DNA from: Tribonema minus
Lineage: Eukaryota; Sar; Xanthophyceae; Tribonematales; Tribonemataceae
Assembly: GCA_017506865.1 (NCBI GenBank)
Contig: JAFCMP010000547.1
Coordinates: 1,302,001-1,366,000, forward strand
DNA: 64,000 bases
Direction: 5' to 3'
The notes under the pieces are model-generated. The model was not told the origin of the DNA. It did no database searches and saw only the letters and a program-made list of their open reading frames with translations. Position 1 is the first letter of the stretch, and each line of letters opens with the position of its first letter. Made by a program: the position numbers and the translations under genes. Positions 26,918-63,975 of the stretch are shown piece by piece.

Positions 26918-29900
26918 GGCATCTGGGGGCAGCAGCCCTGCTTCAACTATAACCCTGGCACCTGCGACATCACTTTCAAGGACAGCCAGCCAACGTACGG
27001 AAACGGTGCATACCCCAAGAATATCAGGCAGCTGACCCTGCCGGCCGTGAGCAAGTTTGCGGGCGTGCCGATACCCCTTCATGACCCCGATGCAAACTTT
27101 CTGGTCGATGCCAAAACAGGTACTTCAACCCTCCAAGGAACACTTTATCATAGAAGTATGTGCACGTTGATTAACTGGCGTTTGTACCACAGCGTCACAA
27201 TGTCACATGAGGATGGCATCAGTTCCGCATCCTGGAAGGCAGTGCTCACACTTCACGTGCGATGATCGAAGCAGACACAATTGCAGCATTTGTGCGCCAG
27301 CCTTTGCGCGTACATGTGTCTCTCACTTGCCAGTCGCAGGACAATCTTGCAGCAGTTCATGCAAGGCCAGCCAAGCCCCTTCATTGCCTCCCATGTCGAT
27401 TTGAAAGGGGCAAGGGCCCCAAGCAGCCTGCCATTTGGCGACATTGCTTCAACTGCGGCTACTGTAGTTGTGAATCGTCACATTATGCGGCTTGTCAACT
27501 GCGCGCACTGAGAGCCTTCATGACCTTCCTCAGCGCAATCACAAAAACACTAAGTTGCTACTCACAAGGTACTCCGCCAAACCAGAAGGCAGTCGTTCAT
27601 CGCTTGAGGTGCCTGTGGTCACCTCATGCGCCATTCCGTGTGCGCGCGTGGGCGCCTTTGCCTGATCATGTGGCTGATGCTTGCAGTGCGCTGTCTCTTG
27701 TGACCGCGCGGGGCAAAGCCTACTGCTCACCGTAACCCTGACCCTAATTCTCACCCAAACCCTAAGCGTGCCGGTGCCCCCCCGCCCCCCCACGCAGGCG
27801 AGCGGCTCACCAACTGCCAGGTGACGGGCGTCGTGCGCACTGTTAAACCTAACGCTAACTCCAACCCTAACCCCAACCCTAACCCTTAGCGTGCGCGGTG
27901 TCCCCCACGCCCCCCCCCGCAGGTGCACGGCTCACCAACTGCCAGATGACGGGCGTCGCATAGCCTACCGTTAACCCTAACCCTACCCCTAACCCAAACC
28001 CTAACCTTAACCCTAACCCTAGTCCTAACCCTAAGCATGCGTACCCCCCCCGCAGGCGCGCGGCTCACCAACTGCCAGGTGACGGGCGTCGCGTACGTCG
28101 CGTGCGCGCAGGACCTGCAGTACAGGAACGTCGACTGCGAACTTCAGAACGCCTACGCGAACCTCAAGAGCTTCGCCAGCGCCCCTGCCAACGCCGACGC
28201 CGTCCCCACCATGTCCCTCAACGCTCAGTTCACGGTCACCGCAGCCGGCGCAGTCGCCGCCGCGCCAATTGCCGCGGCCACCGCCGTGAGCTTGTACAGC
28301 GCGCTGTCGGGCACTGCCACAGTGCTCAGCATGTCGTGCGACGCGGTGGCGGCGGCGGGCGGCGGCGCCGCGCTGCGCGTCGACTCGTGCCTCATGTTCG
28401 AGGCGGTGCCGACGAACGAGTCGCCGGACCTGGTCAAGCAGGTGCGTGGGTATGTAGGTATGCGGACACCGCTGTGCTGAGCGCTGAGATGTAGTGGACC
28501 CGCGTGCTGCTCCGCAGAATCACACCCTTTGGGACATTGTGCCTGGTACGTCTGCAGCATGATTGTCATCCATTTGCTGCAGCTGCTCTTGAGAGCGCTT
28601 GGCGCAGCGGGTGTGCGGCGGCGCGTCAGTACTGCCACGCTTGCGTGAGCAAAGCGCACATCATGCACACCTGTGAACAACACTTCAGCGATTATGACTG
28701 AAGCATAGTTTCATGGAGCTCTGTCGCGAGACCGCATCAGTCTCCTCATGTTCTGCCAAGATGCGTGCATGCTAATTGGCCATGAGTCAAACAGTGCCCC
28801 CGTATCCAGAGTCGTCAAAAGACTTCATTGATTTTCATTGTGCAATACCGCGCAGGCCGCGACCACGGACTTGAACATCAAGTACCGCTTCAGCGACCCG
28901 CCAGTGGCGACGCTCCGCTTCAACAACGTAACCGACGGCACCGACAAGAGCACGGACACCATGCTCAACGCGGACAACCCCATCGTCACGCAGCTCGGCA
29001 CGGCGCCCGCCTACTGCAACGACGAAGACGCAGAATACCAGGGGGAGGACGGGGCGTGGTACCGCTACTTCCGCGGCTCCGACGGCCACTACGTCAACAT
29101 GACGCACATTGTGTACGTGGACGCCGCGTACGCGTACTCGTCAACCATGCAGGTGCGTGTAGGTTGTTCAAGCGACTGCTGTGACACGGCGGCAGAAGGG
29201 TCGCGTGAATTCGTCAACTTGAAGTTCAATCGCCCGATGTCTGCTGGGCTTCGCTGGGCGTTTTGAGAGCATTCAACAGTTGCCGCTGCTAAAAAACGGC
29301 ATTGTGTACGTGGACGCCGCATACGCGTACGCGTCGACCATGCAGGTGCGTGAGAGCTGTGTGGCGCTGCTGCGACGCGACGGCGAGGCGTCGCGAGAGT
29401 GTGAATGCGTCCACTTGAGGTTCAATCGCCCGATGCAGCAGACAGCAGACAGCGGGCTTTACGCCCCTATCGCGCTGGGCATTTTGAGAGCATTCAACAG
29501 TTGCCACTGCTTAAAAACCGGCGTAAAACTTGTGCGGTGGAAGATACCATGTGTGCTGTCAACCGCTACTTCCGCGGCTCCGATGACCACTACGTCAACA
29601 CGACGCACATTGTGTACGTGGACGCCGCGTACGCGTACGCGTCGACCATGCAGGTGCGTGGGGGTTGTTCAAGCGACTGTTGTGACACGGCGGCAGAAGG
29701 GTCGCGTGAATTCGTCAACTTGAAGTTAAATCGCGCGATGTCTGCTGGGCTTCGCTGGGCGTTTCGAGAGCATTCAACAGTTGCTGCTGCTTAAAAAACG
29801 GCGTCGTGTACTTGGACGACGCGTACGCGTACGCGTCGACCATGCAGGTGCGTGAGAGGGCTGTCCGCGCTGCGGCGCGACTGCTGCGACATGACCCGCG

Positions 29901-32812: not shown

Positions 32813-33325
32813 TCAGTGCGTGCCAGCCACATAAGCGCGCGCTGAGGGAGCATACAACTTGAAGTACCTGGCGGTTTTGCACCCGTACATGCACGTATGC
32901 AAGTTTGTCAGAATAGCCATGACAACGTACTGCTGCCCCAACCCGCAATCGCACTGGAACAGCTCGTGCGCGGTAGGAAAGTTCACTGCGGTCCACAAAG
33001 AGCTCAAAAGGCCAAATCCCAACGCAGCGGTCACGCGCTCGTTGACCATCGCGCCGTTGAAAAATGCCTCCCATGACCCGGGCGCGATGTTGCCCTTGTA
33101 CGGAGTCATCACGTACGGCGTGCGCCGGCGCTCGTACGCCGCGTCTGCGTACACGGAGTAGGTGACGCCGTCTGCGACCATGTTCGCGCGCAGCACGGGG
33201 TCGAGATTGCACTCCTGCATGATTCCGGCATCGAGCGCCCTGCCCGCATACGCATCGGTGAGGTGCCTTATGATCCCGTCAGGCGTGTAGACCGCCTGAA
33301 ACTTGAGGGTCTGCACGCTGTCTCT
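32813..33325 (-). CDS. Relative of the surface-protein gene, partial
   Basis: Open minus frame after a candidate acceptor (AACGACAG at about 33326). It contains DSVQTLKFQAVYTPDG, DGVTYSVYADAAY and NIAPGSWEAFFNG, which align with LNIKYRFSDPP, DGYLYFASAYG and CAPGSWSDAFCG of the plus-strand gene. A hydrophobic stretch (VTAALGFGLLSSLWTAV) follows, but the frame runs on to 32813, so the true 3' end is uncertain. Upstream exons were not resolved. The two genes are convergent, suggesting an inverted duplication of a family member. Confidence 0.45.
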   Translation of the reverse strand, partial: RDSVQTLKFQAVYTPDGIIRHLTDAYAGRALDAGIMQECNLDPVLRANMVADGVTYSVYADAAYERRRTPYVMTPYKGNIAPGSWEAFFNGAMVNERVTAALGFGLLSSLWTAVNFPTAHELFQCDCGLGQQYVVMAILTNLHTCMYGCKTARYFKLYAPSARAYVAGTH

Positions 33326-33476
33326 GTCGTTGTAGAGCATGCGCGGTCCCACATGAGGCCGCGGTATCTTGTGTACGGTGCTGCCCATGTATGCCCATAC
33401 GGGTCTAGTGGCGCCCCTCTGTCGGAAATTGCCTGAGCGTACGAAGCGAGTCGAGGCTTGACGGCTTCGATCTGGA

Positions 33477-33720: not shown

Positions 33721-33934
33721 TATACCTCCTAGTGGGGCAATGGGCAGAAGTGTGCTATGCAATAACACGGTATATGTATCCCATATGTGCTATGCAATAA
33801 CATGGTACATCCCCTTGCAGCCAGCTTCAACAAAACCACTCACCCGCACGACAGGCTGTACAGAATGCTGCACAAGGGATGTGACCTGCTGAGACGAGGT
33901 ACAAAAAGCTCAGAGCATCACCTCACCTGCCATA

Positions 33935-34290: not shown

Positions 34291-34299
34291 GCAGCTTTC

Positions 34300-35775: not shown

Positions 35776-38700
35776 CTAGGGGCTGCGGCTCCTGCTCCTG
35801 CTGCGCCGCCGCGCAGGCGGGGGCGAGCGGTCGCGGCTGCGGTCGCGGCTGCTGCGGCGCGGCGGAGGCGAGCGCGAGGGGGACCGGCGGCGCTCGCGGC
35901 GCGGCGGGCTCCTAGACCTGCTCCTGCGGGGTAACACAGTGGCAGCGCTCGGAATGTAAGTTCATCTTGGCCGTGATGTTGACGAGAACGAAAAGCACAG
36001 TTTGGGTTGGTGGCGTGGGTCGCGGAGTGTTGTTAATGACGTGTCCCGGGGGTAGGTACGTACGCGATATGACGTCATTAGCCCGGATCGTACAAACTTA
36101 CGGTAATGACGCCTAGGGCTTGACCTAAGTAGGGTTAGGGGTTTAGGGCTCAAGTAGGGCTAGGAAGTTTAGGGTTTGATCTAGCTAGGATTTGATGAAG
36201 TTGGGCCCGAAACGTTCTGCCGAGGGTCACGACATGGGTTGCGCGGCTGCTCTATGCGAGAGGCATCATGCCCCGGTCAGAGGCTAAGGTCGACTTATGG
36301 AAGCTGTGCACAACGAGTGTTGCTGCTGCTGGCGGTCAGACTCGCTGGGACGAGTGTTGCTGCTGCTGGCGATCAGGCTTGTGCCGCTGCTGCCTCGGCG
36401 TGTTTTCTTGCAATATGCTTGCAAGTGGCATCTGCATGGCAGGCGTACATGACATACTGACACTTTGTACCCATACACTCATGGTAGTGCGACTAGTCAC
36501 ATTTGAATGCATCGACCTAGGCATGGCAGCCATGCAGTACGTAGTTTCTGATGGAATTTAGCATGGTCTGTCATGCACCAATTCGTCCTGGAGCATTCTA
36601 ACCCTATCTTTAGCAGGGTTATGGCTAGGTTTAGGATGTTGCAGCAACTAGGGTTTGCCGTCATTAGCCGTCATTACCCAGAATCCTGCACACTTATGTC
36701 GTTACACGTACTTTCGTCGCTACCCGTACTTACGTCATTAAGAACACTGACTGTCAGGAGTTGCACCGGTCCCGTGCTAGGATTTCGGCGGCGCAAACGC
36801 TCGCACTTCTGCCGCCCGCGCCAGGACAACGGCGGCACAGCCACAGCATACATGCGGACTTTTCCCATAAAGATAGCCACAGAAGCAGCGGAAGCTCTCA
36901 CAGAAGCAGTGGATGCTCCCCATACTTCAACATGAAGTAGTGGTCGTGTGTACCTGCTGCGCCGGCTGCTCCTGTATCCGCCACCGCTCGACCTGCCGTA
37001 GCCCCTGTCCCTATCACCTCCCCTGTCATAGCCGCCGCCGCCGCCAGATCTGCTGTCGTCCCCACGCGGGCGCCGCTCCATGGCAAACTGCAGACACGCA
37101 CTTCAATGTCAATCTCTTGAAGATTGGAGTGGTAGATGATTGGATGAACCAGTATGGGCTCAGTGAGCGCTCCAGGAGATCAAGGCGCAGTTTTGTACAC
37201 ATCCACTCCTGTGGAGCAGGGTTAAAGCGGTCATGAACTTCAACTACTGCAATGGTCGTCTTTGACCATGCCAGCACCGCATGTACACAGCGGCGCTTGC
37301 TGGCCTCCATAGGACACGGCCATCCGGATTCTGCCTGTCCATCCTGTTGACCATGTGCCCTGAAGAGCTGTGTTGTGAGCTTCAAGTACTCGTGTGTTGA
37401 CTTCAACAAGCCAGCTTTCACGCTAGTCGAACGCGCACCACGCGCCAGTGCAGATCGTTGGTGGTCATCCTGCTCAGCATCGAGAGCGTCAGTGACTTGC
37501 GCGCTAACTTCAACATTCCACACTTTGCGCTTGCCTTTACGCGAAGCATGCAGCCATCTAGATGCTGCCGCCCAGCCTGCCATGTGCCTTCTCGGCGAAC
37601 AGCTGTCAGGAACTGCAGCCACCTCCATCATAGCTGCCACCTGCCTGCAGCGAGGGATCGGATCCTGCCCAGCGATCCGGTGAAGTCATCACAAACTTCA
37701 ACAACCACATACGCGAACTTCAACTTGCCTGTATGCGCACGCAGCCGTCGTGCCTGTCCATTCTGTGCAGCGCGTCCTCGGCGTCGCACTTGTGCGGCTG
37801 CGATTTCAGTGGAGTCATCACAAACTTCAACAACTACCACATAAACTTCAACTTGCCTGTATGCGCAGCACACGGCCGTCCAGGTCCTGCCCGTCCATCC
37901 TGTGCAGCGCATCCTCGGCGTCGCGCCTGTCCATCACAAACTTCAACAAATATCTTCATCATGTGAAGTTCAACTTGCCTGTATGCGTAGCACGCGGCCG
38001 TCCAGGTCCTGCCCGTCCATCCTGTGCAGCGCGTCCTCAGCGTCGCGCTTGTCCATGAAGCGCACAAACGCAAACCCGCGCATCTGCCCCGTCGCCCTCT
38101 CGCGCGGTATGTACACGTCCCCAATCTCTCCGAACCTGGCAACGCGCAAAGGCGCAACGATGTACATAGGTTCAGCAGCGAGACTCGTACTCGCGAACAT
38201 GCACGTGTGAAATGGGCATGTATGTACCACAAAAGTGTTCACGATTCAGCAATGAGCAGGGGCCTGATGGGGCGGGATCAACGCAGCGCGCATTGCCAAA
38301 GCAGTATGTATGATGTATATGCCACTCGCCACTGCACACAGACATGCTATGAGACAAGCCTTCCGTGAGCGTGAGGGCAGAGTCACAGGGGCATCTGCCC
38401 TGAGGCGGTGCGTAGGTGCATGCAGCATGCCCTTTGAATCTGACATGCACGGGGGCAGCGCTGGCGAGCGCGTCGAGCAACTGATGAAGTCGAACTCTTC
38501 TTGAAGTGGTGACGCTGACTGGGGCCATGATGGGCCCTAGGCGGACCTCAGGCAAACCACAATATTCACCAGCAGGAGGCAACCCATTAAATACACAAGC
38601 AGCGCTGCGGGGAGAGCTAGCATTCAAAACGGCCAGAACTGGCGTATGGGCTTTGCCCGCCTGCGTAGCCACACGAGGGGCAACAGACGGCCCGTGAAAG

Positions 38701-48000: not shown

Positions 48001-51000
48001 GATGCCCCCTACATAAACTTCAACCTGAGCCTAATTTCAAGTTGAAGTGTGGTCGACTGGGGACACGTGCATCTAGCCCAAACATAAAATTACTACAAGT
48101 TGAAGTGTGGCAGACTGGGCACGTCATATGCCTCACGCGCTCACCGGCACGGAGCTGAAGGCGTCATCGGGATCAATGCCCTCAAGTAGCGGGCACAGCA
48201 CATGAATGCTAGCCTCAACGTAAATGTCAACTGCAAGTTGAAGTGCGGCAGACGGGGCACGTCACACGCCTCACGCGCTCACCGGCACGGCGCTGAAGGC
48301 GTCGTCGGGATCGACGCCCTGGAGCGGCGGGCACAGCACATAAATTCTAGCCTTAACATGAAATTTAAACCTCAAGTTGAAGCGTAGCAGACCGGGCACG
48401 TCACACGCCGCACGCGCTCACCGGCACGAAGCTGAAGGCGTCGGCGAGATCGATGCCCTCAAGCGTCGGTCGGGCACAGCACGCGAATACTAGCCTCAAC
48501 ATAACTGTAAACTACAAATTGGAGTGTGGCAGTCTGGGCACGTCACACGTCGCAGGCGCTCACCAGTAAGGAGCTGAAGGCGTCATTAGGATCAATGCCT
48601 TCGAGCGGCGGGCACAGCACATGAATCTAGCCTTAACATAACTTCAAACTACAACTTGAAGTGTGGCAGACCGGGCACGTCACACGCCTCACGCGCTCAC
48701 CGGCACGGAGCTGAAGGCGTCATCGGGATCAATGCCCTCAAGTAGCGGGCACAGCACATAAATTCTAGCCTCAACATGAATGTAACTTTTATAAGTTGAA
48801 GTGTAGCAGACAGGGCACATCAGGCTCTCACCGGCACAGAGCTGAAGGCGTCATCAGGATCGATGCCCTCGAGCGGCGGGCACAGCGCCGTCAGCGCCGC
48901 GCTGCCCTTGCTTTCAAACAGCGCGATGTCCTCCTGCACAAGCAAAAGGGGCGTCGCAGTTGAACGACAACTTTTTTCTTGGGAAGGGGCCTCGCGCAGC
49001 AGAATGGAAATCTCTGCGTCACGCAGCAGAATATGAATCATTGCTTAGCGGGAGACTTGGGACGAGCAGCAGCGGCGTGCATACGCGTTGTTGGCTGCAA
49101 CAATACGTCACGCAGTAGAACGTGAATTTCCTTGGTGGGAGACTTGGCATGGGCAGCAACGGCGTGCGCTACTCGTTGTTCACGTGGAGGAAACTTCGAG
49201 AATGCAGGAGCGGCATTCGTTTGGTGATTGAAACGCGTCGCGAGCACTAGGTGCACAGCCGCAGCAGAGCCCTAGCTGGCGTGTAGGCAAGATGACTGTC
49301 AAACAGCACGACACGCTACTGCGCGACAGCAGGTGCTGCTGGACGCTAGGCAATTCGTGCTTGTGAGCTCCTAACCCTAACTCTGGCCCTAACCCTAACC
49401 CATTGACGTCAAGAGTCGTGTGAGCATACTTGAAGTACTTCAGAGTGATACCGCGAGGTACGTGCTCTCGAGCTACAGGGTGCGGAACGAAACACCGATT
49501 CCATGAACACGTGTTGTGCCAGGTTTGGTCGAGCGCTCATTGGGCTGTACGCAGCTGCAATTGCCAGTACGCAGCGCTGTCCACCCAACGCGTTCAGATG
49601 TACAATACGCGTGTGCAGCGGCAGCTACAAGCTCAGAAGCACATGTTGGCAACACAGAGAGGCGCCGTCACAGAAACAGCTCGCGCTGCACTGCGCTGCG
49701 CGCTGGCTGTTGCAACAGACTGCGGCAACGCTACGACACCGCTGAGCACTATGCCTGCAACGCTCTCGGCGACGCTGCTTCTGCTATCACGCGCGACTCA
49801 GCTCGGCCTCAGATGTTTGGTAGGAACGGGTCAAGATCGAAACCCTCACCCTGGCAACACAGAGCTGACGGTATTACTACACATCATGCCTACATGGCGG
49901 CTGCGAAACACGCATGCAGGGTCGCCGCTCTGCGTGTCAGAGCTGCAGCAGCGTCGCGGGCGCGCACGGGCGACGATGACCACCAGCCACGTGTGATCTG
50001 TAGTCTATACCCACCGTATCCCTGCCTGACTTCTTCCTGTCCACTGCCATCGCAGTGCTCCCAAGCATCAACACAGCTTATGCCAGAGGGCGTGCGAGCG
50101 AGCCGTAGTTAGGCAGCCATCTAGAATGCGCACCTGCAGCTTGTGCCAGCCACTGTGCGAGTCAAAGTCGTAGTAGCGCGGGTCGCGAGTCACGCGCGAC
50201 ATGACCTTGCGCTCCAGCCAGCGCGTGAAGCCCTCGTTAAGCCAGAACGACTGCCACGTCCTACAGTTGCGCAACGGTGCATGCGGCGCGAGACGCGCTA
50301 GCGCTTTCAGTTTACACAAGAGCGGGGTATGCAGGTAGAATGTGGGTAGGTAGTTGTGAACCTTACATTTGTATACTTTCAAGTGCTTTCGGCCTTTGAC
50401 GTGTCGGAGTTTAATTGCGTGTGCACTGTGTTGGCGCTTCGGGAGATGTTTGAGGCGCAAACTTGTGGTACGTAGATATGAGATACGTGTTGAAGTTTGA
50501 AGTATACCTTGAGGTGGTTCCAGCCAATGTGCGCGTCGAAGTCGTAGTAGCGCGCGTCGCGCGTCACGCGCGACATGATTTTGCGCTCGAGCCACATGGT
50601 GAAGCCCTCGTTCAGCCAGAAGGACTGCCACGTCCTGGGGGCACAGGGGGAGTTGAATTTCTGTGCTTGAAGTTGGAGTTCATGCTCTTGGGAGCGGGGG
50701 AGCCGCGGCAAGACCGCACCAGTTGCGTGCTTGTGGTTGAAGTTGAAGCTCGCTCACAATCGCCCGTGAGCTTGCGCTACACGAGGTGACTGCTGCCACC
50801 GGCGCTTGCCATGTCGAAAACTACATGAGACAACGAAACCCGCAAGGTTATAATTATGTTGATGGTGACCACTGCTCTAAGCAGCATGTGCTCCTTGCGC
50901 AATGGTTTTCGTATCCTGGCAATTATCACGCCTGCGTTGTCAAATGTTTTTGCTGTAAGGTGCATGTCATGTAGACAGAGCTTGCACTTGAGCACCAGGT

Positions 51001-54000
51001 GGTGTTGTGAAGTTCAAGGGATGCCACATCCTGGGCACCGTCCGAGAAGATGCAAGGCAAAATGGCGCAGAAGATGCAAGGGTCACTGGCGGCATCTTTG
51101 GGGTTCGCTGTCTTTCAAACACTCTGCATTGGGCATAAGCTGACGTTCATGCATAAGACATTCATGCATGAGACGTTCCTACAGCGCATGACACGGCGCA
51201 CACCAGTGACCGGCACGTTAACGGTCACAATAGCCTGCCAGGCTACCACTTCCGAATTTCACGCTAGAACAGATATTGAATGTCCGCCGTGCGCAGCCGG
51301 TGCAACGCCGCACACAATTGTCGATCATCGAGTGCTGTGCGTTGCTGCGCACCGCGATTGCGTCGAGCCACACAAAATCAGTTGTCAGATGCTGAGCGTT
51401 GACGCGGCGAGCGCCCCCGCAAGCCGACGTTCTCGCAATTCTTACTGACGCTGTCGAAGTCGAGCGCTGGCGCTCGGACGCGTGAGCGAGCCCGCCGCCG
51501 TGGCGCTGAGCACTGCTCGCGCCAATTGCGCACTGCGGCGGCGACGCTGCCGGATGCGAGCATGCCCCGCAGCGTGAGCGTCGCCGCAGAGCGCTGCCGA
51601 TGTGGAGCGCTGCTGATGTCAGCGCTCACCACGCTCCTCGTGGTCATACATTCTGACCTGCTCTCGACGCTTACCCCCACCCTTGTGCTGCCCGTATCCC
51701 CGAAAGCCGCCCATCTGCCTGGCGTGTGCCTGTCTGCAACCGCACCCCGTGCCTACCCCAAATGTCTGACCATCCTGACGCTGCCTCCACCCCCCAAAGA
51801 CGCTGTCCATCTGTGGAGCGCTGCAGCTGACGTACGCACGCAGTACCGTAAAAGCCTGACTTACTCCCCCCCCTCCCTGTATAGCTTCTCCCCTTTGCAA
51901 ACGGCCATGGGCGTGCTGTGCGCAGGTCCACATCCGCTGGCCCGTAGATGGGGGCGTGTACGCGGGCAGTTACGGAAAGGCGTAGTCAGCGCTCAGCACA
52001 CACCTGTTGGTGATGAGGTTGCCCGTCCACGAGTGGCTGATCTCGTGCGCGACGACGAACGCGAGGCTGCGGTCGCCGGTCAGCAGGGTCGGGGTCACGA
52101 ACGTCAGGCAGGGGTTTTCCATGCCTGCGTCGCAAGCGCAGAACGCACAATGGGGGGAGAGGGGGGAGGTGGCTGTTGGTCATATCCACGTTTGTCAGCG
52201 GCAAAACCTCAACATATCAGCCGTTGTGGGCTGCATTCACGTCTCTGAGCGTTCAAATTTTGACTTTTCGCCTGTTGTGTGTGTCAAGGGTTGGCGTAAT
52301 GCGAAGAGGGGGCTGAGACCGCAAGGCAAGAGGTCTCCATGCCTGCAGTGCCATTTTACCGGGCGGGGAGCGGGGTCAGTTGTGCCAATGCAATGGCGTT
52401 ATGCGCCTTTCACAGCTTTTAAGACTCGACACTTTGCCTGGATGGCAACAGCGCAAAGCCAGCAGGGCTTCAGGCAGGCGTGCTCCGTGCCTGCAGTGTG
52501 TGCTGCGCCTGCAGTAAGTGCGTGTGTGGACTTCAACAACGGGCAGGTATGTATGATAGGCGCGTGTTGACCTCAGCGCTCAGTCACCTCAACCCTGCGC
52601 AGCGCCACTCTGCACCTCAGGTGCTGATCTCAGAGCCACCTCAACCTGCAGAAAAATGCGTTGCGGGTCTGGGTTTGAGCCAAGGTCCGCCGCCCCCGTC
52701 AGCAGCATTACATTGCCAGCCAGAAAACGTATGCTCGTGCTTTGTTGCTGAGAGAAAGACAGGGAGCTCGTGGTGATGGCGCCGGTGCACGACCATGCAG
52801 TTTGCAACTGGCAACATCCGCTGGGGGATTGCTCAGAGGAACTGCACAGCATCAGCGCCACGACCACGTGCAGGAGCAACAGGGTCATCCGCCATGAGAC
52901 CTCCACACCAATGTTGAAGTAGCACCATGCTGAAGTTGCCCTGAGCGTCTTGCTGGCGAGCCGCCAACTCAAGGTTCTTCATACTTGTGGTCCACTTGAG
53001 ACAAGTACTTCAAAAGCACAGGCGAAGTCAACTCTATCCACTTGCAGGCAAAGGCGATTGCCATCTCAAGGTTCGTTGTACTTGAAGAAGTACACTTCAA
53101 AGAAGCGCTTTGATGGCGTGCGCAACGTACCTCCGTATGGGAACGATGGCGGCAGGCACAACACATCGTAGCGGCCCCAGACGTAGGGGCACGTCAGCTC
53201 CTCAGCGGCCGTGAGGAACTCCTGCACATTTGCAGCACGACAGGCAGTCACGTCAGGGCAGACACGACTCTGCTGAGTTCTGAACGTCACGATCAGGGTT
53301 GTAGAGCTAGGGCGAGGCTGTTGCGCGTCCCTGATGTGTTAGGGTTAGCACGCGCTACGATCTGAGCCTCGCACGTTCTAGTTTTAACATAGTTGACGCT
53401 GTTGCGCGTGCGTGCTGCAGACGTAGGGGCATGTCAGCTCCTCAGCGGCCGTGAGGAACTCCTGCGCGTGGGCATCAGAAGCTGGGCAGCAAAACGGGCA
53501 TTTGCGTCAGCGCTGACACAAACCTGCCATGTAGAATCTGACCATCTGACCAGGGCGAGGGCAAGGGTAAGGGTGAGAAGGGCATAATTTAGAAGTGCAG
53601 CGCACTCTGTGCGCTGTGGGCTTAACATTATGTGGGCCTTGCACGCTTTCAAGTACAGAATGCTTGACCAATAGCGAGCCGCTCCTTTGCTGTGAGAAAC
53701 TCCTCAGCATCAGCAGCAGCAGCAGCCGGGGGACAATGGGGGAATGGGCCCAAACGGTAACCCTAACCCCAACCCTAAGCCCGACCAGTCACAAGCGCAG
53801 GACAAGCACGTGGTCACTACGATCATTGCCATGAATAAATATACCAGTGCTGCGCACTCAGCAGCGACGGTGCATGCCAACAATGCAAAGGCACCGCGTA
53901 CACTCACAGCCCCAACCCTGACCTTAGTTGCGCATTGGCACGTAATGAGGACACCCCTGTCGTCAGACGCGCGTCCAGCATCACCCCGCGTGCTGACAAT

Positions 54001-57000
54001 CGTCACTGCCGCTCTACTGTACAATTTTCACAAGCAATGCCCGCTTGACTTGCGTGCAGAGATGTAAGTGTAGACCAAGCACTGCACAAAACCCGGAGGG
54101 ACGGTCTTGACTGACAACTGAAAGCAACGCTGGTGATCATCTACTGGTCATGACCGGTTCTGCCAAACTTGAAGCAACAACTTCAATGCCCACCTCTGTC
54201 TGTGCAAAGTCGTGCGCTGCCGCGTCCACCATGCTCGGCTCGGACCATATCTGGTGGCGACGCAGTAGGAGGGAAGGGGGGAGGCAAGCACAGAGGGCGC
54301 ATTTTGTGAACGCCTGTCGATCATGTTCAAGATGTGGAAACATGGGCATGCTGTGGACACCATCACAGGGTTAAGGTTAGGATTGCGGTAAGGCAATGAT
54401 CAGCGCCTGGATTCCTTTGTTGCCACCCAGCTAGGGCTCTGCTGCAGCTGCGTGCCTTGTGTTGGATTGCCTGTGCCAATCAACAACTTCAACAACAACT
54501 TTAAGATATGGCACAGCTGCTTCCCCAAGTCTCTCCACGAAAGGACTACTATCTGTTCCATATGCCTGTTCTCCTTGGGCAATGGCCAGTACTTGGGTCT
54601 CAGCGATCCGGTCACAGTGCAAGCGAACAGAGTCAACACGCGCCACTGCAGTGAACCTGGGAGACTCTGAAGATCGTTGCAAGAGCAACGACATGCGCTA
54701 GCACGCCGCAGATGCCTGACCCTGGAAGCCAGGTGGTCCGTACACTGAAAGTTCCGGTAAAGTGCAACTGGTTCATGTGCACCTAACACACATGGCACGG
54801 CTCAGAGCATAAACTGCCGTGGCAGCCAGATGGACACGATTAGTTCTGCCATGCAGCACAAAGATGCACGCGCCAGTGCATGCTTCTGCCATGGCAGCAT
54901 GGCACAGATTGCGCCCGCTGCAAGTTGTCACAGACTCACTCGGCACCGGTGGCTGATTTCCCGCGAGGCCAGGTCCCCGACCGCCAGCGCGATGAGGTAC
55001 GACGGCACGGGGACGGGCTGGTGGAAGCCAAATGTGCGCATCCCTTCTGATGAGCCTGCGCGTAGATAGATCAGAGAAAGCAGTTTTACAATATGTCATT
55101 AAACAGGAGCCATCCCTAACCCTAGCCCCTAACCGTGACCCTACTCCAGCCCCTAAGTCGGAAAGACGATGTATCAGTCACCACAGCTGTCAGCAGCGCT
55201 CCGCCAGGGGCGCGCATCAGAATCTGCTGAACGTGAAATCATCGCCATGGGTTGAGTGAGGGTTAGGCTATCCCGGAACCTAAGCAAGGGCCCCACACAC
55301 TTTCATCACCACATGACCTGTTGTTGAGATTGAAATCTCAAGGCGGTCTGCAGTGTATTCAGGCCGTGATCAAGCAGATGAAAAGAAAATGCACATTGGG
55401 ACAGCTTTCAGTGCGCCACCAGACAACCGCTTCCTTTCTTCCGGAGCAGTCCGCTCACGACTACCACAGTATGACATTTGCCTCTCCTGCTGTAGGAGTT
55501 GCACAGCCAACTGCTGGCTTTCTGCAGTGTGTGCTGCAGTTTCATTATTTACCAAAAACGCTTCTGAAACCTGCGACTGACTCCGGCCACCACAACCAGT
55601 GCGCTGCGTCATTTCTGCAATGCACACCTGCTGTGGCGGGCGCGCCAGTGCTCAGCGCGCTCATGAGGCACGTCGCCCACTCCGGAACTTCAACAGTAGC
55701 GTCGTACGTCAACTTGGCGGCGGGGGTGTCCTGGTCAAGCGGAGAGCACCGCGTAACGGCCATGGGACAGGTGAGCTCACATGCTATCTTGAAAGCAACG
55801 AGTGAAATATGCTGCAGCTTAGTACTATCAGTTTGCTCTCCAGTGCATCAGTGACAGGCTTACGATGCGAGACTCAAGACTTGTTAGTTGACTTGATGGC
55901 AGGCAGATCTGGACAGGCTCAGATAACGCCGCCACCACCAAATGACGCGTTGTTGCACCCACCGATGTATGGTCTTTTGCAGCGACATACGCACTTTCAC
56001 GTACCTTTGAAATTGTGAGCTCACGCAAGTCTGTCCGATAAGTCTCTCAATGCCCATGGCGCTAGAGTCACCTAGGATGCGTTGCCCGCCACTGCGGGTG
56101 CCTTCACATCACGGAGGTAGCCGGCGCTTGAAGTCTGAACTACTTCAACACATTCAATGGCTATGCGGCAGCGGTGCGATGACAGTTCGAAGCAGTGCAG
56201 CGCAGCGCAGCCAACCTGGCACAGCAGCAGTGCGCACGCGTGCATTGCACGACCCTCCGTGAACAGGTACGGTTGCGCCCTGCAGCGCCCTCAAAACATT
56301 ACGACCAAATACCGACTTGCGGACACATACCGCTGCAGGTGTTGTGACCGCCGCAGCAGTGTGCGGCTCACCTGGCACGGCAGCAGCGCGCGCGCGCGTA
56401 TTGCTGGCACTGCGTGAACAGGTACGGGCGCGCCCTGCCCGCCGTCTGCAGGGCGCCTTCCACAAAGTGACAACTACTCACTCACGGTACATCAGCAGTC
56501 GTCCGACATTTACTCACTTACAGTTTATCAGGAACTGTCATGGACTCGAAAAGTAGAACAAGGGCTCACCTGACATGGCAGCAGCGCGCGCGTGTGTATC
56601 GCCTGGCACTGCGTGAACAGGTACAGGTGTGCCTCGCATGCCGTCTGCAGGGTGCCCTTCTCAAATCTGACATGAAAGTTGAAGTTTATCAACAACTGTG
56701 CGGGCACCTGCACGCCACGACAACCATTACGAATGCAGCAGCGAGCACAGCACACACCTGGCATGGCAGCAGTGCGCGCGCGTGTATCGCCTGGCACTGC
56801 GTGAACAGGTACGGGCGCGCCTTGCCCGCCGTCTGCGCGGGCGGCAGCCACTGCACGGCGCTGCTGCGCGGCGACGTGTTGTAGAAGATGGACACAGTGG
56901 CTGTGGAGCCGGCGGCGCGCTCTGCGCCGGGCAGCGTGATCTCTGCAGAGTCACGGTGTTCGCGGCAGTTGCGGCGTGTTAGGGCCTGAGGCAGAAAATT

Positions 57001-59352
57001 GCAGTAGAGTGTGCGCTTCGAGTACTTCGAAGTACTTGATAATGTGTTTTGAGTAATGTCATTGGCCACTGCACGGCGCTGCTGCGCGACGACGTGTTGT
57101 AGAAGATGGACAAGGTGGCTGTGGAGCCGGCGGCGCGCTCTGCGCCGGGCAGCGTGATCTCTGCAGAGTCACAGTGCGGCGGTTGCACGTGAGGGCCCGG
57201 TGTACAGCATTGGCGTGCAATACTTCCAATACAAGTACGTTTTTCAAGTTCATGTCACTGTTGAAGTTTACTTTACAACCCCAACCCCCAGCGGCGGCGA
57301 GCTAGAATGACCAGCTAGGGTTCACGAGCGCTGAGCTCAAGCAGGCCAATCGGTGGTCAGTGGATGGATGACGCGGTTCAACCATACTTGAAGTAACACT
57401 TCCGAAGACTGTCCAGCAGGCAGCGCATCATCACGATCGCGTGGCAGCCGGGAGCACTGAGCAAGCACTAGCTGCACGAATGAAAGTAGGTCAGGAGTAC
57501 TTCAACAAGTACTTGATAACACGCAGCGCGTCAACACGAATTGCGTGGCAGCATGACTGGCCAGCCGGGAGCATCGAACTCTGCGCTGCATGGGTGGTGC
57601 CATGCGTAATTTTAGTGCACTTTTTCTTATCTACGCTCAGGGCACAAAAAGCCCAGATCATCGATATCAAAGCTTGCAGTACAGGATCTACGTGTCATGT
57701 GACAATCTGAAAGAGTCTCAATGACAATCACTTCCTTAACGGACGGCGCCAAAGTGTAGTGTACTTCAACAAGTACTTCAAAGAGTCGCTCTTTGACGTC
57801 GCCAAAAGTGTAGTGTACTGCAAAAGTACTTCAGGCACCCTCTTTCACAGAGCACATGCGTAACTGTAATGTACTTCAACAGGTACTTCAATAACTCTCT
57901 CACCGAGTGCGCTGCCAAACGTCTGGTGCTCCACGTGCTGCCTGAACTTGGCGCGAACTCCATCCACCTCCACCTAATCCATCCCGATCACCCACCGCAG
58001 CGCACGTCCAAGCGTTGCGTCAAAGATAGCGGCATGCACGGGATCCGTGATGTGAGAGTGGTGGAGGATGCGTGCGTTTGGTGCACCTCGCTTCCCTAAC
58101 CCTAAGTGATGATCACTGGGGTTAGTGTTAGAGTTAGGGCGGCGGTGCCGTCCGCACTGCGCAGTTCAGGAGGCTACGGGCATGCACTACAGTAAATCCC
58201 AAGTGGTCCATTCCACCCTATCCGTGCCGTACGACGCCATCGCAGTTCATGCCCAATCGTTGCGTCAAAGACAGCGAGATGTGGAGACTACCAATGTCAG
58301 TGTGCAGCGTGCTCCATGTTCCGTGTTTGCCTGCAACCAGTGTGCTCGGCTGTGACGTTACATTCAGCAATGCGCCAATCAGGAGTTCCAAAGCCATTCA
58401 CAGCATCCCAGATCATCAAAGCACCAATTGAAGTGGACCGCATTGCAAAATAGCCATGCGGAACATTGCTGACAGCGCGCTACAGTTGCTCAAGCCACGG
58501 TACCACCAGGCGATGGAGCGAACACAGCAGCAAGTCATATCACAGGTGCATATGATTATCGTATATCACAGGTGTATATATATTTCTGTTCGCCTGCTAC
58601 TGCTCAAGAATACGAAGTGGATGCAGCGCCAGAACCGCATTATATGATGCACACACCCAGATTCGGACGACCTCAGAAGAACAGGTCGATGCTCAACAAC
58701 ATGTTTATAATTTCTTGATCTGGACCAAGCTGTAATCTCTGGTTCATGCTGGCATTACTGTTGGTTTGCTCCCAAACACGAGGAGCGTGCACCTTGCCCC
58801 GCATCAGCAAACACTAGAATCAACACCAGAGGCCACAACATGGGGTGCCTGAACTACAGCAGTGATGAAAGAGAAAGGTACAACACAAGCTTGACTGAAA
58901 TCTAGATGCAGGCAAGACAAGAACGCCAACCGTAAAAAAAAATGGCCAGGTGGCAGAACATGACCTGAACGAAGTAAAAACCCGCATTTCTCCACGTCTT
59001 TTGGCAGCAATGCGGGCATGCCTGTACGACAAATATAAAACACTTTGCCACTTAAAATCAACAAAACTATCTGCAATGATTGTCGAAGTGTGTACACACC
59101 GCATCACAGATCGTGGCAATTGAGAGCTGCGCATCCAGGAAGATCCGATCTCACCTTGGTGATCACAAGCGTCGACGTGTCCAGCACAAACTGCGTGGCT
59201 CCGTTCTCCACGACTTTCACCGTGTACGTAGCGCTGCCGGTGATGACCTTGGCTTCGAAGTCCACCGCCAGCTTCAAGCTCAAGTGCGTGCCATGCACGC
59301 TGCCGGAGTTTGACTGCGAGCTGAAGTCGCGCTGGGACTCCTCGGCCGCCAT
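41827..59352 (-). CDS. Leukotriene A4 hydrolase/M1 aminopeptidase with C-terminal membrane tail
   Basis: Sixteen phase-consistent exons: 59352-59155, 57973-57904, 56942-56758, 55730-55628, 55055-54940, 54250-54194, 53221-53131, 52124-52004, 50634-50508 (or 50260-50134), 48933-48832, 46765-46691, 45628-45477, 44873-44747, 43770-43522, 42826-42651 and 42049-41827; 723 residues. Motifs in order: [34 protein letters not shown], substrate-site GMENP, zinc site HEISHSW with the third ligand in WLNEGF, catalytic Tyr in YEKGFALL, and C-terminal GRMKFTRPL with the carboxylate-binding Arg/Lys. All are placed as in LTA4H, a zinc aminopeptidase/epoxide hydrolase. The family usually ends near the GRMKF domain (about 610 residues). 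Here a phase-2 donor at 42650 joins an exon adding a Ser/Pro-rich spacer and [21 protein letters not shown], a tail anchor. Without that splice, translation stops at 42632. Confidence 0.93.
42340..42760 (-). repeat. Three copies of hydrolase exon 15 end
   Basis: The segment from GGCCATGAAGGCG to the donor after AACATGTCGAGATCGCTGAG is repeated at about 42470-42576 (donor changed to GAGCGC) and partly at about 42340-42405. The repeated unit spans the GAG|GTGCGC junction, which supports that junction being a real splice site. Confidence 0.8.
43195..43560 (-). repeat. Three copies of hydrolase exon 14 end plus donor
   Basis: CACGTGCTCGAGTTCATCACGTCGCAG followed by a GTGCGY donor, in shorter words GTGCTCGAGTTCATCAC then GTCGCAG, occurs at 43522-43550, at about 43365-43400 (intact) and at about 43201-43240 (diverged). 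Confidence 0.85.
44200..44815 (-). repeat. Four copies of hydrolase exon 13 end plus donor
   Basis: The exon end coding [21 protein letters not shown] plus its GTGCRG/GTGCGG donor is present at 44747-44815 (true), about 44575-44640, 44385-44455 and 44205-44285. The copies stay open in frame over about 20 codons, with substitutions such as WPLPLK and WPSPHQ. Confidence 0.88.
44860..45005 (-). repeat. Two copies of hydrolase exon 13 start
   Basis: The start of exon 13 with its acceptor (plus strand CACGCACAGCGCGTCGTCGAA) recurs at about 44968-44995, about 110 bp away inside the upstream intron. Confidence 0.75.
45560..45930 (-). repeat. Three copies of hydrolase exon 12 start plus acceptor
   Basis: True exon start [20 protein letters not shown] at 45628. 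A second copy at about 45712-45795 codes [19 protein letters not shown] through QASSYFKG, and a third at about 45880-45925 codes [12 protein letters not shown]. Each follows a GCAG acceptor. Confidence 0.88.
46750..47460 (-). repeat. Five copies of hydrolase exon 11 acceptor
   Basis: Intron end (ATGTGCTGTTGGCGCCCTGTG) with GCAG and TACGAGAA-like exon start occurs at 46765 (true) and at about 46868, 46990, 47284 and 47430. The copies carry only about 8-10 bp of exon. Confidence 0.82.
47800..48900 (-). repeat. Eight tandem copies of hydrolase exon 10 end plus donor
   Basis: Starting from the true exon end at 48832, seven decayed copies lie at about 48694, 48556, 48413, 48275, 48137, 47964 and 47828 (period about 138 bp, one longer). 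Each has exon sequence (plus strand GGCGTCGTCGGGATCGATGC), a GCTCACC donor complement, and the same intron start with AAGTTGAAGTGTGGCAGAC. Confidence 0.93.
50134..50260 (-). CDS. Hydrolase exon 9B (alternative)
   Basis: 127 nt, same phases as 9A, 247 bp farther along the transcript. Encodes [20 protein letters not shown] and on to [10 protein letters not shown]. It keeps WLNEG and the CRD-like [11 protein letters not shown] block, with about eight substitutions against 9A concentrated at the C-terminal end. Acceptor GTAG, donor GTGCGC. No stop or indel, so it looks functional. Confidence 0.9.
50508..50634 (-). CDS. Hydrolase exon 9A (alternative)
   Basis: 127 nt, phase 2 in and phase 0 out. 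Encodes [20 protein letters not shown] and on to [10 protein letters not shown], including the zinc-ligand Glu of WLNEG. Acceptor CCCCAG, donor GTATAC. It is one of two complete versions of this exon; 127 is not divisible by three, so using both would shift the frame. Confidence 0.9.
53170..53470 (-). repeat. Two copies of hydrolase exon 7 start plus acceptor
   Basis: ACGTAGGGGC, then GTCAGCTCCTCAGCGGCCGT and GAGGAACTCCTGC on the plus strand, occurs at 53180-53224 (true exon) and at about 53419-53463. A weaker match lies at about 53680-53710. Confidence 0.85.
56205..57190 (-). repeat. Multiple partial copies of hydrolase exon 3
   Basis: True exon 56942-56758. A copy of its first half with acceptor is at 57160-57066 ([20 protein letters not shown] to SSAVQW). 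Three copies of its second half with donor are at about 56645-56571 (intact, [18 protein letters not shown]), 56435-56362 and 56290-56215 (decayed). In the second-half copies an internal exon CAG now sits behind a pyrimidine-containing tract and looks like a new acceptor, giving phase 0 to phase 0 mini-exons of about 72-75 nt. Confidence 0.88.
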
Positions 59353-59534: not shown

Positions 59535-62500
59535 ATGGCATTTGACGTGGAGGCGCGGGATGCGGTTTCCATGCGCGTGATCAAGGGGCTGCAGGACGTG
59601 TACAGGACAAAGGTCAAGGATGTTGAGGAGGCGTTCCTCTTTGAGAAATTCGAGGTGAGTGCCAATTCAATCCAAGGCGATTTGCAGCAGTTGCAGGCGC
59701 AAGCAGCGATTGGCAAGATATGTGCATCGGTGGAGTGCACCTGCATTGCAGCTTGTGGTGCAGCAGCTGTTTGCCTCTTGTTGTAGTTACGTAGATGTTC
59801 AAGTTTTATTGTGTGCACCGCGCCTTACTGCAGGACTGTCAGGATCTGTGCTGCGTACATTGCTTCGAAGCACAGCGTTTCAGGCACAGCAATCTGAGGG
59901 AGTGCACAGTAGCAGTGCTGTCAAACAACTGTCAGAGCGAGCCTGGCGTGCACGCACGTATACTTTTAGAAGCAGCAGCCTGCTTTCTACATGCGTCTTG
60001 CGCGTTAATGAGTACGGATGCTCGGGTGCAAAAGCTGAGCTCGCCGGCACCGGCAACGAGAGATGGAACTGTAACGGTCGCAAATATGTAGGCATGTAGC
60101 TGCATTGCTGTGTGCGGTCGCTCGCACACGATAACAGGCATCTTTGAGAACATGCTTATCTACAACAGGTAGACAACATCTGCAACGCAGCCATGTACCA
60201 ACGTGTGCTGATAGTGGAACTCGCCAGTCAAGGACCTGTGCCAGAAATGCGTCGGCGCGCAAAGACACATTTCATGTTCCGGTTGACTGTCAGTCTCAAA
60301 TCTGAGGCTGGCGATGGAAACCATGCATGTATGCACTTTTTTCAGCGAAATCATTCCAGAGCAAAAAAAGGAGTGCAAATGCTGAGAAATGGCTGATCAG
60401 CAGTGATGGTGTTGCTCTACCGCTGAAAGATAGCGGCGATGGCAGACAATGTAAATGCAAATCGAAGGACCTGAAAGTATTCTATGGTGATGTATGTCTC
60501 AAATCTGCCACTGGCGATCAAGCACATGCACGCACTGCTTTTAGCGACAAGGCAGAAAACTGGAAGCGAGGCCGTCTTTTACGGCAATCAGATCGGGTGA
60601 TCAAAATCGGGGCCCAAACGCCCCTTGTAAATCCACGCCAGCTTCGAAGCAAAGTGACCTGGCTTTGGCGTGAAAATGAGGCAAACAGAACGGCCACGCA
60701 AATCGGGCACGGACTCTTCGAGACGAACAGGCGCAGAACTGCTGACGTTTGCATGGCGCAGGCTCAATGTGGCGACGCCCGATCTGTTTTGAGTGGGACT
60801 TTTGTGCCCCATAAACGATGTCCTGATAATGCGGAACGGCCTTTACTATTTATGGTCGACTTTGACATTTGCACTTGACTTCTGCCAGATCGACGTTGAC
60901 ATTTGCACTTGACTTCTGCCAGATGGAGGCGATATCAGACAAGGAGCTGGAGGCCAAGAGCCAGGTGCTGGTCATTGGTCCCTACTCTACTGGCAAGACA
61001 ACCTTCATCAGGTGCGCGCCTTTGTGAGACATTGCAACACCGTGTCTGTGCTGCGCTGACGGAGCATGCCCTGAGGACCATAAGCAGCTGTGCGTGGCCA
61101 GTGCAATGTTGTAACATCAATGGTTGAAAAAGAGCATCAGGTGTGTGCCACTGTGGCTGTTGCGCGCCGTTGTAACTGTAGGCACAGTGTCATTGTGCCT
61201 GCGGTCTGCTCGCAATGTACCCCTGGAGCGTCACCCAGTGCACACTGCTGCATGGACGGTAGTGCGACCGTCGTCACTGAAAGTTGGCAACTCACGAAAG
61301 CAGCGATTTATTGGGGTAATAGGCATGCGGTAGCTGAAAAGACGGTAGCAGCTTACCATTGCCATCAGGCGTACACTGCAGACGGTAGTGCACTCTGCAA
61401 TGTGGCCTTCACGTACGCACGCCATACATCTGGCTCCACCGCATCAGTGCTGTGTACTTCCCTTGTACTGCACTTCGGGAGCAGCGTTTACCGTATGTCC
61501 TGACTTTCTGGTTGTGCTGCACGCCACGCTTGCACTTTGTAGGTACCTGGGTCTACCCTTGCGTTCCCACATGCTTGTAAACCATACTTATGTCAACCAT
61601 CTCGTTTCTGCATACTTGTAAACTTTACCTCAAAATAGCAGCAAAAAAAGTACTTCTATTGTTTAATCAGTGTTGATGCTGACGTTCTAGTCGTTTGCAC
61701 GCCGCAGGTACCTGTTGGGACGCGACTTCAACAACATGAACATCGGCCCGGAGCCCACAACAGACAGCTTCACAGTGGTGAGCGTAGAGTACTGAACCGG
61801 AGTGCAGCCTGTCTGAAAGCGCGACCTATGACTTGACGTGGGACTCATGACTTGCTGTGGGACTCATGACTCGCACAGCCGTCCCACGCACCGCCTCGCT
61901 ACTTCCTCTGCGCACAAGTACTGCGGCCCCCGCTGCAGCTGTCAGAATGCAGCATCGCAGCCTGACATTTCCGCGCTGCGCATTAGCCCTCCGCGTCACG
62001 CAGCTGACTCTAAGTCCTGCCCCCAATGGTAACTTTAACTTGCAGCTGGTGCTTGGCATCTCTGCCGCTGCCCGCGTCACGCAGCTAACCCTAACCCTGC
62101 CCCCAACCGCAACTTGAACTTGCAGCTGGTGCACGGCAGCGTGGCATCTCGGAACTTTCATTCAGCTAACCTCAATCCTGCCCCCAACCGCAACTTGAAC
62201 TTGCAGCTGGTGCACGGCGACGAGGGCCGCTCCGTGGCGGGCAACTCGTTCACGCGCATCGCGTGGACTCATGACTTGCTGTGATACTCATGACTCGCAC
62301 GGCCGTCCCAGGACCGCCTCGCTACTTCTTCTGTGGCCGCCGCCGCAATAGTTGCAGCCTGACATTTCCGCACTGCGTACCACCCTTCCGTGCAACGCAG
62401 CTAACCCTAACTCCTGCTTGCACGGTCATAACCTCAACTTGCAGCTGGTTCACGGCGACGAGGACCGTTCTGTGGCGGGCAACTCGTTCACGCGCATCAC

Positions 62501-63975
62501 GTCGCTGCCGTACTCGGGTCTGCTCCAGTTCGGCACGGGATTTCTGCGGCGGCTCACTGCGTCCATATCACCTTCGCCCTTCTTAGAGGTGAATCGGATC
62601 TGCAGCAACTGTACACTATGAACCATACCACATCATGCTGAAGGTGTAACTTGTGAACACATTCATATGCTGCAACGGTGTGGCTTGTCAACAACATGTA
62701 TATACTTCAATATCGGTTCGGCACGGGCTTGCTGCGGCTTGTCAACACCATGTATATACTTCAATATCAGTTCGGCACGGGCTTGCTGCGGCAGCTGACA
62801 GCGTCCATATCGCCTTCGCCAATCCTAGAGGTTTAGCTTTGAAATCCGTGGTGACTGTGTATTATGAATTGCGTTACAACATGCTGAAAGGTGTGACTTG
62901 CGGACATTATGCATATACACTTCGAGCTAGTTACTACTTCATGAATGTAGGGCTCATCAGCACTATAGTTTCAAATGTATCTTTTGAGGTAATAGTTGCA
63001 TTATAATGTGGGAGTCGTCATGTGAGCTCCATTGGAGGTTCCTGAGGACTGCTTTGGTCAGACCCTGTGCCATCAGTGTACGGTGACTGCTTCGCGTGCG
63101 CAATGTTACAACAGCGTGCCGCCATCGCCGCTCTCGAGGGCAACTTCAACTTATACAGAACGTGTGCAGGGACGATTTTGGCTTGCAGCATACCACCACC
63201 TCTGCATGGATGCGCACATGCTTTACCTTTTGTTGCTCGCTGTGCCCTCATTATATACATGCCCGTTGCTCGCAGCACGTCACGCTCGTAAACATGCTCG
63301 GGGCGCTCATTGGCGAGACTTGCCAGCATCACCACATACATGCAGATCAAAAGCGAAAAACAATGAAAGTCAGAAACTAAACAAACAGAAAATGAGAGTT
63401 CATAAAATGACACGATGGTTTAACATGAGCTTTCAAGTTATTTGATCTCTATTGCTCACAGTACCCTCAATGCGTACTGCCGTTGCTCGCGGCACATCAC
63501 GCTCGTACACATGCCCGGACGTTCACCGGTGAGGCTCGCCAGCATCACCACATATACGCTGTACAAAAAGAGTATGAAAAGCAGAAATTAAAACGATACG
63601 ACTGTTTAAAATGACATCAGAACTGATTAAATGGCGGAGTTGCAATTTACTTACCTTTGTTGCTCACGGCATAGCCATCGCTCGCAGCACATCACGCTCG
63701 TGGATACGCCCGGCGCGCTCACCGTCGAGGCGCATCAGCACCGCCGCATGAATGCATACATACTTACCCTTCATCGCCACTGTGCCCTCAGTACATATTT
63801 GTAAATGTGCTCAGTATATACGATTTATTGCCCGCAGCACATCACGCTGGTGGACACGCCCGGCGCGCTCACCGGCGAGGCGCACCAGCACCGCCGCAGC
63901 TACTCGTTCCCCGTCGTCGCGCGCTGGTTTGCGGACCGCAGCGACCTCATTGTCCTCATCTTCGACGCGCACAAG
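59535..63975 (+). CDS. EHD-family (Eps15-homology-domain) dynamin-like ATPase, 5' part
   Basis: Five phase-consistent exons: 59535-59654, 60923-61011, 61708-61777, 62445-62588 and 63838-63975; it continues off the right edge. The N-terminal helix (VIKGLQDVYRTKVKDVEEAF) is followed by the P-loop (VLVIGPYSTGKTTFIR), switch I (NIGPEPTTDSFTV), HGDEDRSVAGNSFT, SLPYSGLLQFGTGFL, the DxxG-type motif (HITLVDTPGALTGE) and WFADRSDLIVLIFDAHK. This order and wording is that of EHD1-4/RME-1, ATP-binding membrane-remodelling proteins of endocytic recycling. The C-terminal EH domain would lie beyond the window. Four of its junctions show duplicated splice sites. Confidence 0.95.
60860..60925 (+). repeat. Two copies of EHD exon 2 acceptor
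   Basis: GACATTTGCACTTGACTTCTGCCAGAT occurs twice, in words GACATTTGCACTTG and ACTTCTGCCAGAT, ending at about 60891 and 60924. Only the second is followed by the exon. Confidence 0.85.
62030..62510 (+). repeat. Four copies of EHD exon 4 acceptor and start
   Basis: CTTGCAGCTGGT precedes HGDE-type coding sequence at 62445 (true), about 62208 (about 55 bp of exon retained, to the FTRI codons), 62122 and 62041 (short). Upstream intron sequence with CTAACCCTAA and CTGCCCCCAA is shared. Confidence 0.88.
62530..62840 (+). repeat. Three copies of EHD exon 4 end
   Basis: The end of exon 4 (TTCGGCACGGG to ATATC and CCTTCGCC, then TTAGAGGT) is repeated at about 62768-62836 with a GAG|GTTTAG junction, and partly at about 62716-62750. 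Confidence 0.83.
63250..63900 (+). repeat. Four copies of EHD exon 5 acceptor and start
   Basis: CGCAGCACATCACGCTGGTGG-type sequence continuing into the TPGALTGE codons is found at about 63258, 63480, 63671 and 63838 (true). The third copy extends through the HQHRR codons. All but the last decay into unrelated sequence. Confidence 0.9.

Follow-up and report, generated by a model that had tools for sequence, protein, structure and literature searches.

The window analysed here, a 64,000-nucleotide stretch of contig JAFCMP010000547.1 in the assembly of the yellow-green alga Tribonema minus (158.18 Mb, 554 contigs), carries a leukotriene A4 hydrolase (LTA4H) gene on the reverse strand (42632..59352), an EHD gene on the forward strand (60.9-64 kb) and a reverse-strand SR-factor gene with an RRM match at 37985-38137. 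Self-comparison of the window revealed that its 27-64 kb portion is rich in closely spaced direct repeats. All splice junctions were placed by homology, via ortholog-guided spliced alignment. A rough LTA4H reading assembled from the window exons had as its best match the Tribonema minus leukotriene A4 hydrolase (87% identity over the whole query), and this deposited protein (P0001) fits the window gene exon by exon. The gene was delimited by spliced alignment with P0001 and two brown-algal orthologs (P0003 and P0004) and by its reading frames. Its model comprises 14 introns, with exons, all on the reverse strand, at 59352-59155, 57973-57904, 56942-56758, 55730-55628, 55055-54940, 54250-54194, 53221-53131, 52124-52004, 50634-50508, 48933-48832, 46765-46691, 45628-45477, 44873-44747, 43675-43522 and from 42826 to the gene end, where homology stops at about 42690 and the deposited model at about 42632. 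The three guides yield identical junctions in all but four places. P0001 alone uses a duplicated mini-exon, P0004 picks the alternative copy of a duplicated exon, P0003 departs at a donor-acceptor pair around 55.6-55.0 kb, and the guides also disagree over 45.5-43.5 kb. For exon 44873-44747, the acceptor is backed by P0003 and P0004, and the donor by P0003 alone. A guide sequence could choose the wrong copy.

Ten of the 28 LTA4H junctions are straddled by a local direct duplication, which extends 4 bases or more to either side. The acceptor of the exon starting at 57973 shows a weak case (57969..58276, 76.9% identity), which includes 5 bp of exon. Exon 56942-56758 is copied at both ends: a duplication covering 96 bp of exon and 44 bp of intron straddles its acceptor (56847..57197, 90.7%, period 211), so that the exon head reappears upstream, and its end, a 19-residue stretch at donor 56758, recurs with the donor as three additional, degraded copies downstream in the intron (56197..56836), as read directly and recovered as repeat pairs. 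At the acceptor of the exon starting at 53221, the duplicate (53178..53465, 97.9% over 48 bp) is used as an exon in the deposited protein; P0001 carries a 13-residue segment twice, corresponding to one extra copy, which the P0003 and P0004 alignments skip. Exon 50634-50508 is duplicated as a whole, with a copy at 50262-50132 (50132..50636, 85.5%); the match overshoots the exon borders by just 2-3 bases, both copies are open, and the guides differ over which of them is used. A long array of exon end and donor 48832 follows (47769..48888), with a period of about 138 bp, seven repeat pairs and a TRF call at 48092-48886 (5.8 copies of a 138-bp unit). Repeat pairs also delineate arrays at the acceptor of the exon starting at 46765 (46757..47459), including up to 9 bp of exon, and at donor 44747 (43960..44810), the latter donor deriving from a single guide. 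The remaining cases are an array at the acceptor of the exon starting at 45628 (45546..45973, 81.8%, period 157), a duplication at the acceptor of the exon starting at 44873 (44848..45079, 82.1%, period 117) and a duplication at donor 43522 with 32 bp of exon and 5 bp of intron (43362..43553, 97.3% over 37 bp, period 155).

The EHD exons were modelled using a human EHD1 sequence as guide. Two of the six modelled junctions are straddled, namely the acceptors before exon bases 62445 and 63838, and a copy reaches a third. Three straddling repeat pairs (72.6-90.4%) make up the array at the first acceptor (61841..62502), where the exon is weakly conserved, and three more (best 91.7%, period 150) the array at the second (63266..63898). 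The exon end at donor 62588 is copied into the intron (62526..62832, 86.2%, period 242), the copy passing the donor by 2 bases. In the SR-factor gene, a tandem array (37680..38056, reverse strand) overlaps the predicted RRM exon, as located by the RRM match and the repeats. The original prediction that copies straddle exon borders in several genes of the window is borne out in LTA4H and EHD, with about 14 duplicated borders in these two. Its statement that the copy keeping the reading frame is always the intact one fits the gene models in general; it fails in so far as P0001 includes one extra copy and the P0004 alignment takes the other copy of the duplicated LTA4H exon.

In order to assess junctions elsewhere in the assembly, the Pfam AAA_6 model was used to locate dynein heavy chain loci on other contigs, and 200 kb were taken. 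For dynein locus D, ortholog P0121 (74% identity) provided 30 introns, all 30 of which were reproduced by a second guide; for the other loci, introns were kept only if at least two guides agreed exactly. The first set comprised dynein loci A, B, D, E, F and G and LTA4H (7 loci, 135 introns), and the second consisted of four more dynein loci chosen before any look at their repeats. Clusters of local direct repeats were classified as straddling a junction or as wholly intronic, and those lying where no agreed junction exists were left unclassified. The first set yielded 76 straddling and 8 intron-only clusters, with 61 outside agreed introns and hence unclassified (78, 9 and 65 without low-complexity masking), and the four further loci yielded 21, 4 and 4. 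In the pooled data, 97 of 109 classified clusters straddle a junction and 12 are wholly intronic, with 65 further clusters unclassified. LTA4H exon 44873-44747 entered the model after repeats had been seen there, with both ortholog guides backing it; without this exon two straddling clusters become intron-only and the count is 95/109. Junction counts were pooled over 10 loci (160 introns, 320 junctions), nine of them dynein paralogs, with locus G excluded and two overlapping alternative introns of L030 removed. By this count 96 of the 320 junctions are duplicated (47 donors and 49 acceptors), and 81 of the 160 introns have at least one duplicated junction. The pattern recurs at predicted junctions outside the window, in the dynein loci of other contigs. 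Where a junction is duplicated, the intron is longer (medians 791 and 816 versus 584 and 598), and direct repeat pairs far outnumber inverted ones (389 versus 6, summed over loci of which three overlap).

Straddling clusters could predominate in the absence of any bias in where duplications arise. We therefore simulated a null in which duplication is uniform and neutral under exon constraint, with similar unit sizes and the same detection, thereby covering three effects that may mimic a bias: loss of duplications inside exons, a slower decay of pairs in which one copy is constrained, and the shortness of introns. The null gave straddling to intron-only ratios of 131:163 and 127:175 and, with introns of median length 812, of 185:376. 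Set against a null share of 0.45, 97 of 109 corresponds to P = 6e-22. The density of outer cluster edges tells a similar story. In the last two 60-bp exon bins, 1.61 and 3.65 edges per kb were observed, versus 2.46 and 1.56 in the null, and in the first five intron bins 0.42, 0.16, 0.12, 0.14 and 0.83, versus 1.37, 1.09, 1.46, 1.18 and 1.25. Between the final 120 bp of exon and the initial 240 bp of intron, density drops about 12-fold, compared to 1.6-fold in the null; at 240-300 bp into the intron (9 edges) it rises towards the null. As a raw count for the intron-only comparison, 39 of 124 repeat pairs end within 6 bp of a junction. When repeats overlapping borders are set against those in intron interiors, the outcome is 97 to 12, the simulated null having 185 of 561 straddling. 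Judged by genomic sequence, the proposed local duplication focused on exon borders, lengthening introns and multiplying splice sites, is supported at 97 of 109 clusters and 96 of 320 junctions. The excess depends on identity, with straddling to non-straddling counts of 57:8 at a cut-off of 80%, 37:6 at 85%, 20:6 at 90% and 6:3 at 95%; against the null share of 0.45, the young pairs differ at 90% and above (P = 0.0009) and not at 95% and above (P = 0.17). Since the excess is smaller at high identity, part of it may accrue after birth.

The duplicated units share a characteristic size. The smallest period per junction has a median of 147 bp (5/25/50/75/95% quantiles of 93/128/147/177/241 bp) and is similar at donors and acceptors (P = 0.61). 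The exon part has a median of 54 bp at donors and 41 bp at acceptors (P = 0.014), the intron part makes up the remaining 90-105 bp or so, and at none of the 96 duplicated junctions does exon account for more than 70% of the period. Period modulo 3 is flat (32/30/34), which indicates that copies are not kept in frame and rules out frame selection on unit length. A cause in the splice motif itself was likewise discarded, as CAG|GT and AG/G content shows no difference between straddled and other junctions (P = 0.22-0.46). An apparent scarcity of duplications beside short exons is gone in the two best-supported loci (6/22 versus 17/62), and probably reflected false short exons. As originally predicted, the extra copies are found intronward of the junction, in 160 of 161 alignments. 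Their identities span about 66% to 100%, from which we infer that duplication continued until recently.

Divergence was measured in a set of 77 pairs with aligned copies of at least 28 bp. In the 50 of these with at least 20 bp of both exon and intron, it amounts to 9.8% where the sequence is exonic and 18.4% where it is intronic, a ratio of 1.88 that is close to the factor of two expected if one exonic copy alone is free to change. The extra copies thus appear to diverge like unconstrained sequence, with the exon-attached copy staying intact. In 36 of the 77 pairs, over 25 bp of spacer separates the copies and the flank is testable; 11 of these spacers resemble the matching flank (P up to 0.02) and 25 do not, so that the latter pairs are not plain tandem duplications. 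The set hence mixes simple tandem copies with spaced ones. Many pairs adjoin without a spacer. Telomere-like letters make up 4.8% of spacers versus 2.5% of other intron sequence, a difference too slight to build on. The predicted decay of copies with distance was not recovered: the nearest copy has an exonic identity of 0.893 and the farthest one of 0.892, and among 37 junctions the nearest copy is better in 17 and the farthest in 13, with 7 ties. Whole-match identity, in which the farthest copy is better in 29 of 39 cases, was rejected as a test of distance, because shorter matches score higher in it. Equal divergence of nearest and farthest copies fits arrays that were made together or copied from copies.

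The pattern is not uniform across loci. Dynein locus G (C537) has no repeat pairs over 21 introns, where about 13 clusters would be expected at the rate of the other loci, and dynein locus C (C90), with few introns and a partly unreliable model, has one pair in 30 kb. Third-position GC is 0.70-0.74 in G and 0.72 in C, versus 0.82-0.93 in A, B, D, E and F. Four of eight RRM loci (3.2 kb each, junctions not placed) have no pairs.

Together, these counts show the predicted splice junctions in the examined genes to be hot places for direct duplication. The reading that we consider reasonably probable is that duplication, in units of roughly nucleosome size, is biased towards borders and lengthens introns from their ends. 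The strongest rival is positive selection on complete splice-site modules, whereby duplications would originate evenly and copies carrying a whole module would be favored, for instance through robust splicing via redundant sites. Such a module would encompass the exon enhancer region, the splice site and the branch region, and most units do contain 5-90 bp of exon and at least about 45 bp of intron. The AG of acceptor copies is retained in 79 of 82 letters, slightly above its neighborhood, and the increase of the straddling excess with age is what retention would give. Whole copies diverge neutrally, however, as the ratio of 1.88 attests, and additional sites should compete with the true site. 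Moreover, the intronic signals of donors and acceptors differ in length, and yet their units share the same period. We hold selection to be unlikely, if still a serious contender.

Survivorship alone, in which duplication is even, exon-internal events are purged and pairs with a constrained copy remain detectable for longer, is rather improbable. The ratio of just 6:3 at 95% identity and above is indistinguishable from an even process, in keeping with survivorship, but the simulations, which yield straddling to intron-only ratios of 0.49-0.80 against an observed 8, and the steep fall in edge density from exon to intron contradict it, unless intron-internal duplications vanish much faster than modelled. 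Insertion of an introner or other transposon-like element with very long target duplications could account for the 60-190 bp spacers found in some pairs, and the spacer at donor 27673 of locus F does match locus A (90.5% over 148 bp). This is, however, the only long match elsewhere among 21 spacers compared with the analysed loci and the window, two others matching telomere-like repeats and a few giving short, weak matches of 22-54 bp; one spacer searched genome-wide is single copy, and many pairs have no spacer at all, all of which makes insertion very improbable. Equally hard to credit is the Rogers model, in which an exonic AGGT segment would have been duplicated in tandem to yield introns that are now decaying: it shares with the data tandem duplication and splice sites within the unit, and one short, GC-rich locus A intron (135 bp) repeats edge to edge, but not one pair in 160 introns shows similarity, exon included, between the donor and acceptor regions of the same intron. 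Tandem copies are a classic hazard for assembly, but most copies differ by 5-30% and each has its own flanks, so an assembly artefact is the most improbable explanation of all.

In the border-biased process, duplications would be born more often at exon borders than in intron interiors, and those leaving the mRNA unchanged would persist, so that introns would grow from both ends. Chromatin, or breakage close to exon edges, would cause the bias: a nucleosome-sized stretch could be nicked or broken on both sides, then filled in and rejoined, sometimes with filler DNA. The observed unit starts about 40-55 bp inside the exon and continues through some 100 bp of intron, with no distinction in this between donors and acceptors. 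Paired nicks have been linked to tandem duplication, and nucleosomes to Okazaki fragments and exon edges. A near-nucleosome unit, a similar offset at donors and acceptors and indifference to frame favor a cause at the level of DNA over one at the level of RNA. It is possible, and we advance it only tentatively, that a mutational process tied to chromatin or transcription re-copies junctions in lengths of about one nucleosome and is the main route of intron growth in this alga. If so, introns would be border-derived, self-accreting sequence.

Several known systems bear a likeness to the Tribonema units. In tandem exon duplication with mutually exclusive use, an exon is copied beside itself, as exon sequence is here; in that system, though, the whole exon is copied, whereas in Tribonema one whole-exon copy was found and the others carry a single splice site. 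Minisatellites and VNTRs consist of head-to-tail units, a feature shared by the Tribonema units of about 60-250 bp, some of them in arrays; unlike minisatellites, the Tribonema units are tied to functional splice sites and often have no more than one or two additional copies. In the potato RdRp gene, a single duplication of an intron-exon segment, acceptor included, is described as having created a new intron (PMC4974935), and some new introns among Drosophila near intron pairs are ascribed to exonic tandem duplication (PMC2891723). Such Rogers-type events resemble those in Tribonema in being local direct duplications with a copy that is spliced out, but they are described as giving rise to a new intron (PMC4974935, PMC2891723), whereas in Tribonema existing introns lengthen at 96 of 320 junctions, leaving the modelled mRNA unchanged. 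Introners, for which a bias towards nucleosome linkers is reported, likewise shape introns on a large scale in algae and other protists (PMC9860276). They come as families of like sequences dispersed over numerous sites (PMC9860276), whereas each Tribonema unit is the sequence of its own junction. The distinction drawn by the original prediction from introner insertion thus holds, with no common element among spacers: the introner hallmark of a like element at many loci was not found in the 21 spacers, given their one long match elsewhere. Tribonema is absent from the main text of the introner survey (PMC9860276), and a lead from Raphidocelis was set aside, as it concerns mitochondrial introns (PMC5966456). 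Among the open-access matches listed, as represented by titles and abstract openings and with subscription journals outside the scope, none was found to describe an enrichment of duplications at splice junctions. For gene models, such duplication may be a source of error, the deposited LTA4H protein including a copied mini-exon. The length that introns attain is mostly ascribed to transposons and small indels; junction-aimed duplication, with a typical unit size and exon offset, would be a third intron-lengthening process, abundant enough to count, and would provide a natural system in which to ask what makes exon edges break or re-copy and how cells pick among several near-identical splice sites.

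Spliced alignment of the deposited leukotriene A4 hydrolase protein (P0001) to the window revealed that a stretch of 13 residues is present twice in this protein, with the extra copy deriving from 53423-53461. This repeat is apparently a junction copy, that is, a duplicated exon border with its adjoining intron, taken as an exon by the gene model. A probable LTA4H exon near 44873-44747, supported by ortholog alignments, is absent from P0001. A duplication of period 174 (42342-42751) extends from the last part of the LTA4H coding sequence into the 3' flank, and sits at a coding-sequence border other than a splice site.

Outside the window, local duplications were almost absent from the dynein heavy chain loci L027 and L028 (contig C537) and L015-L017 (contig C90), which also presented lower third-position GC; these could possibly be contigs from another organism or, alternatively, represent a quiet gene class. 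Introns of the modelled loci, comprising LTA4H and dynein loci with junctions placed by ortholog-guided spliced alignment, were strongly enriched in ACTTCAA/TTGAAGT and related words, which are sometimes palindromic (e.g. AGTACTTCGAAGTACT at about 57.03 kb).

Several other repeats were identified. Degenerate TAACCC arrays (27844-28034) lie in the region assigned to a surface-protein gene by the original prediction. TAACCC is probably the telomere repeat, since (TAACCC)4 occurs 7227 times in the assembly, counting both orientations, and a long (TAACCC) run opens contig C2; (TAACCC)4 is also found internally in contig C1. A DDE_Tnp_4 transposase-like reading (32813-33538, minus strand) is overlapped and adjoined by a tandem array of three copies of an 80-bp unit (33472-33718). 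Self-comparison of the window also identified a 254-bp direct repeat with 99.6% identity (11688-11941 and 17083-17336), which, with copies spaced 5.4 kb apart, differs from the local duplications.
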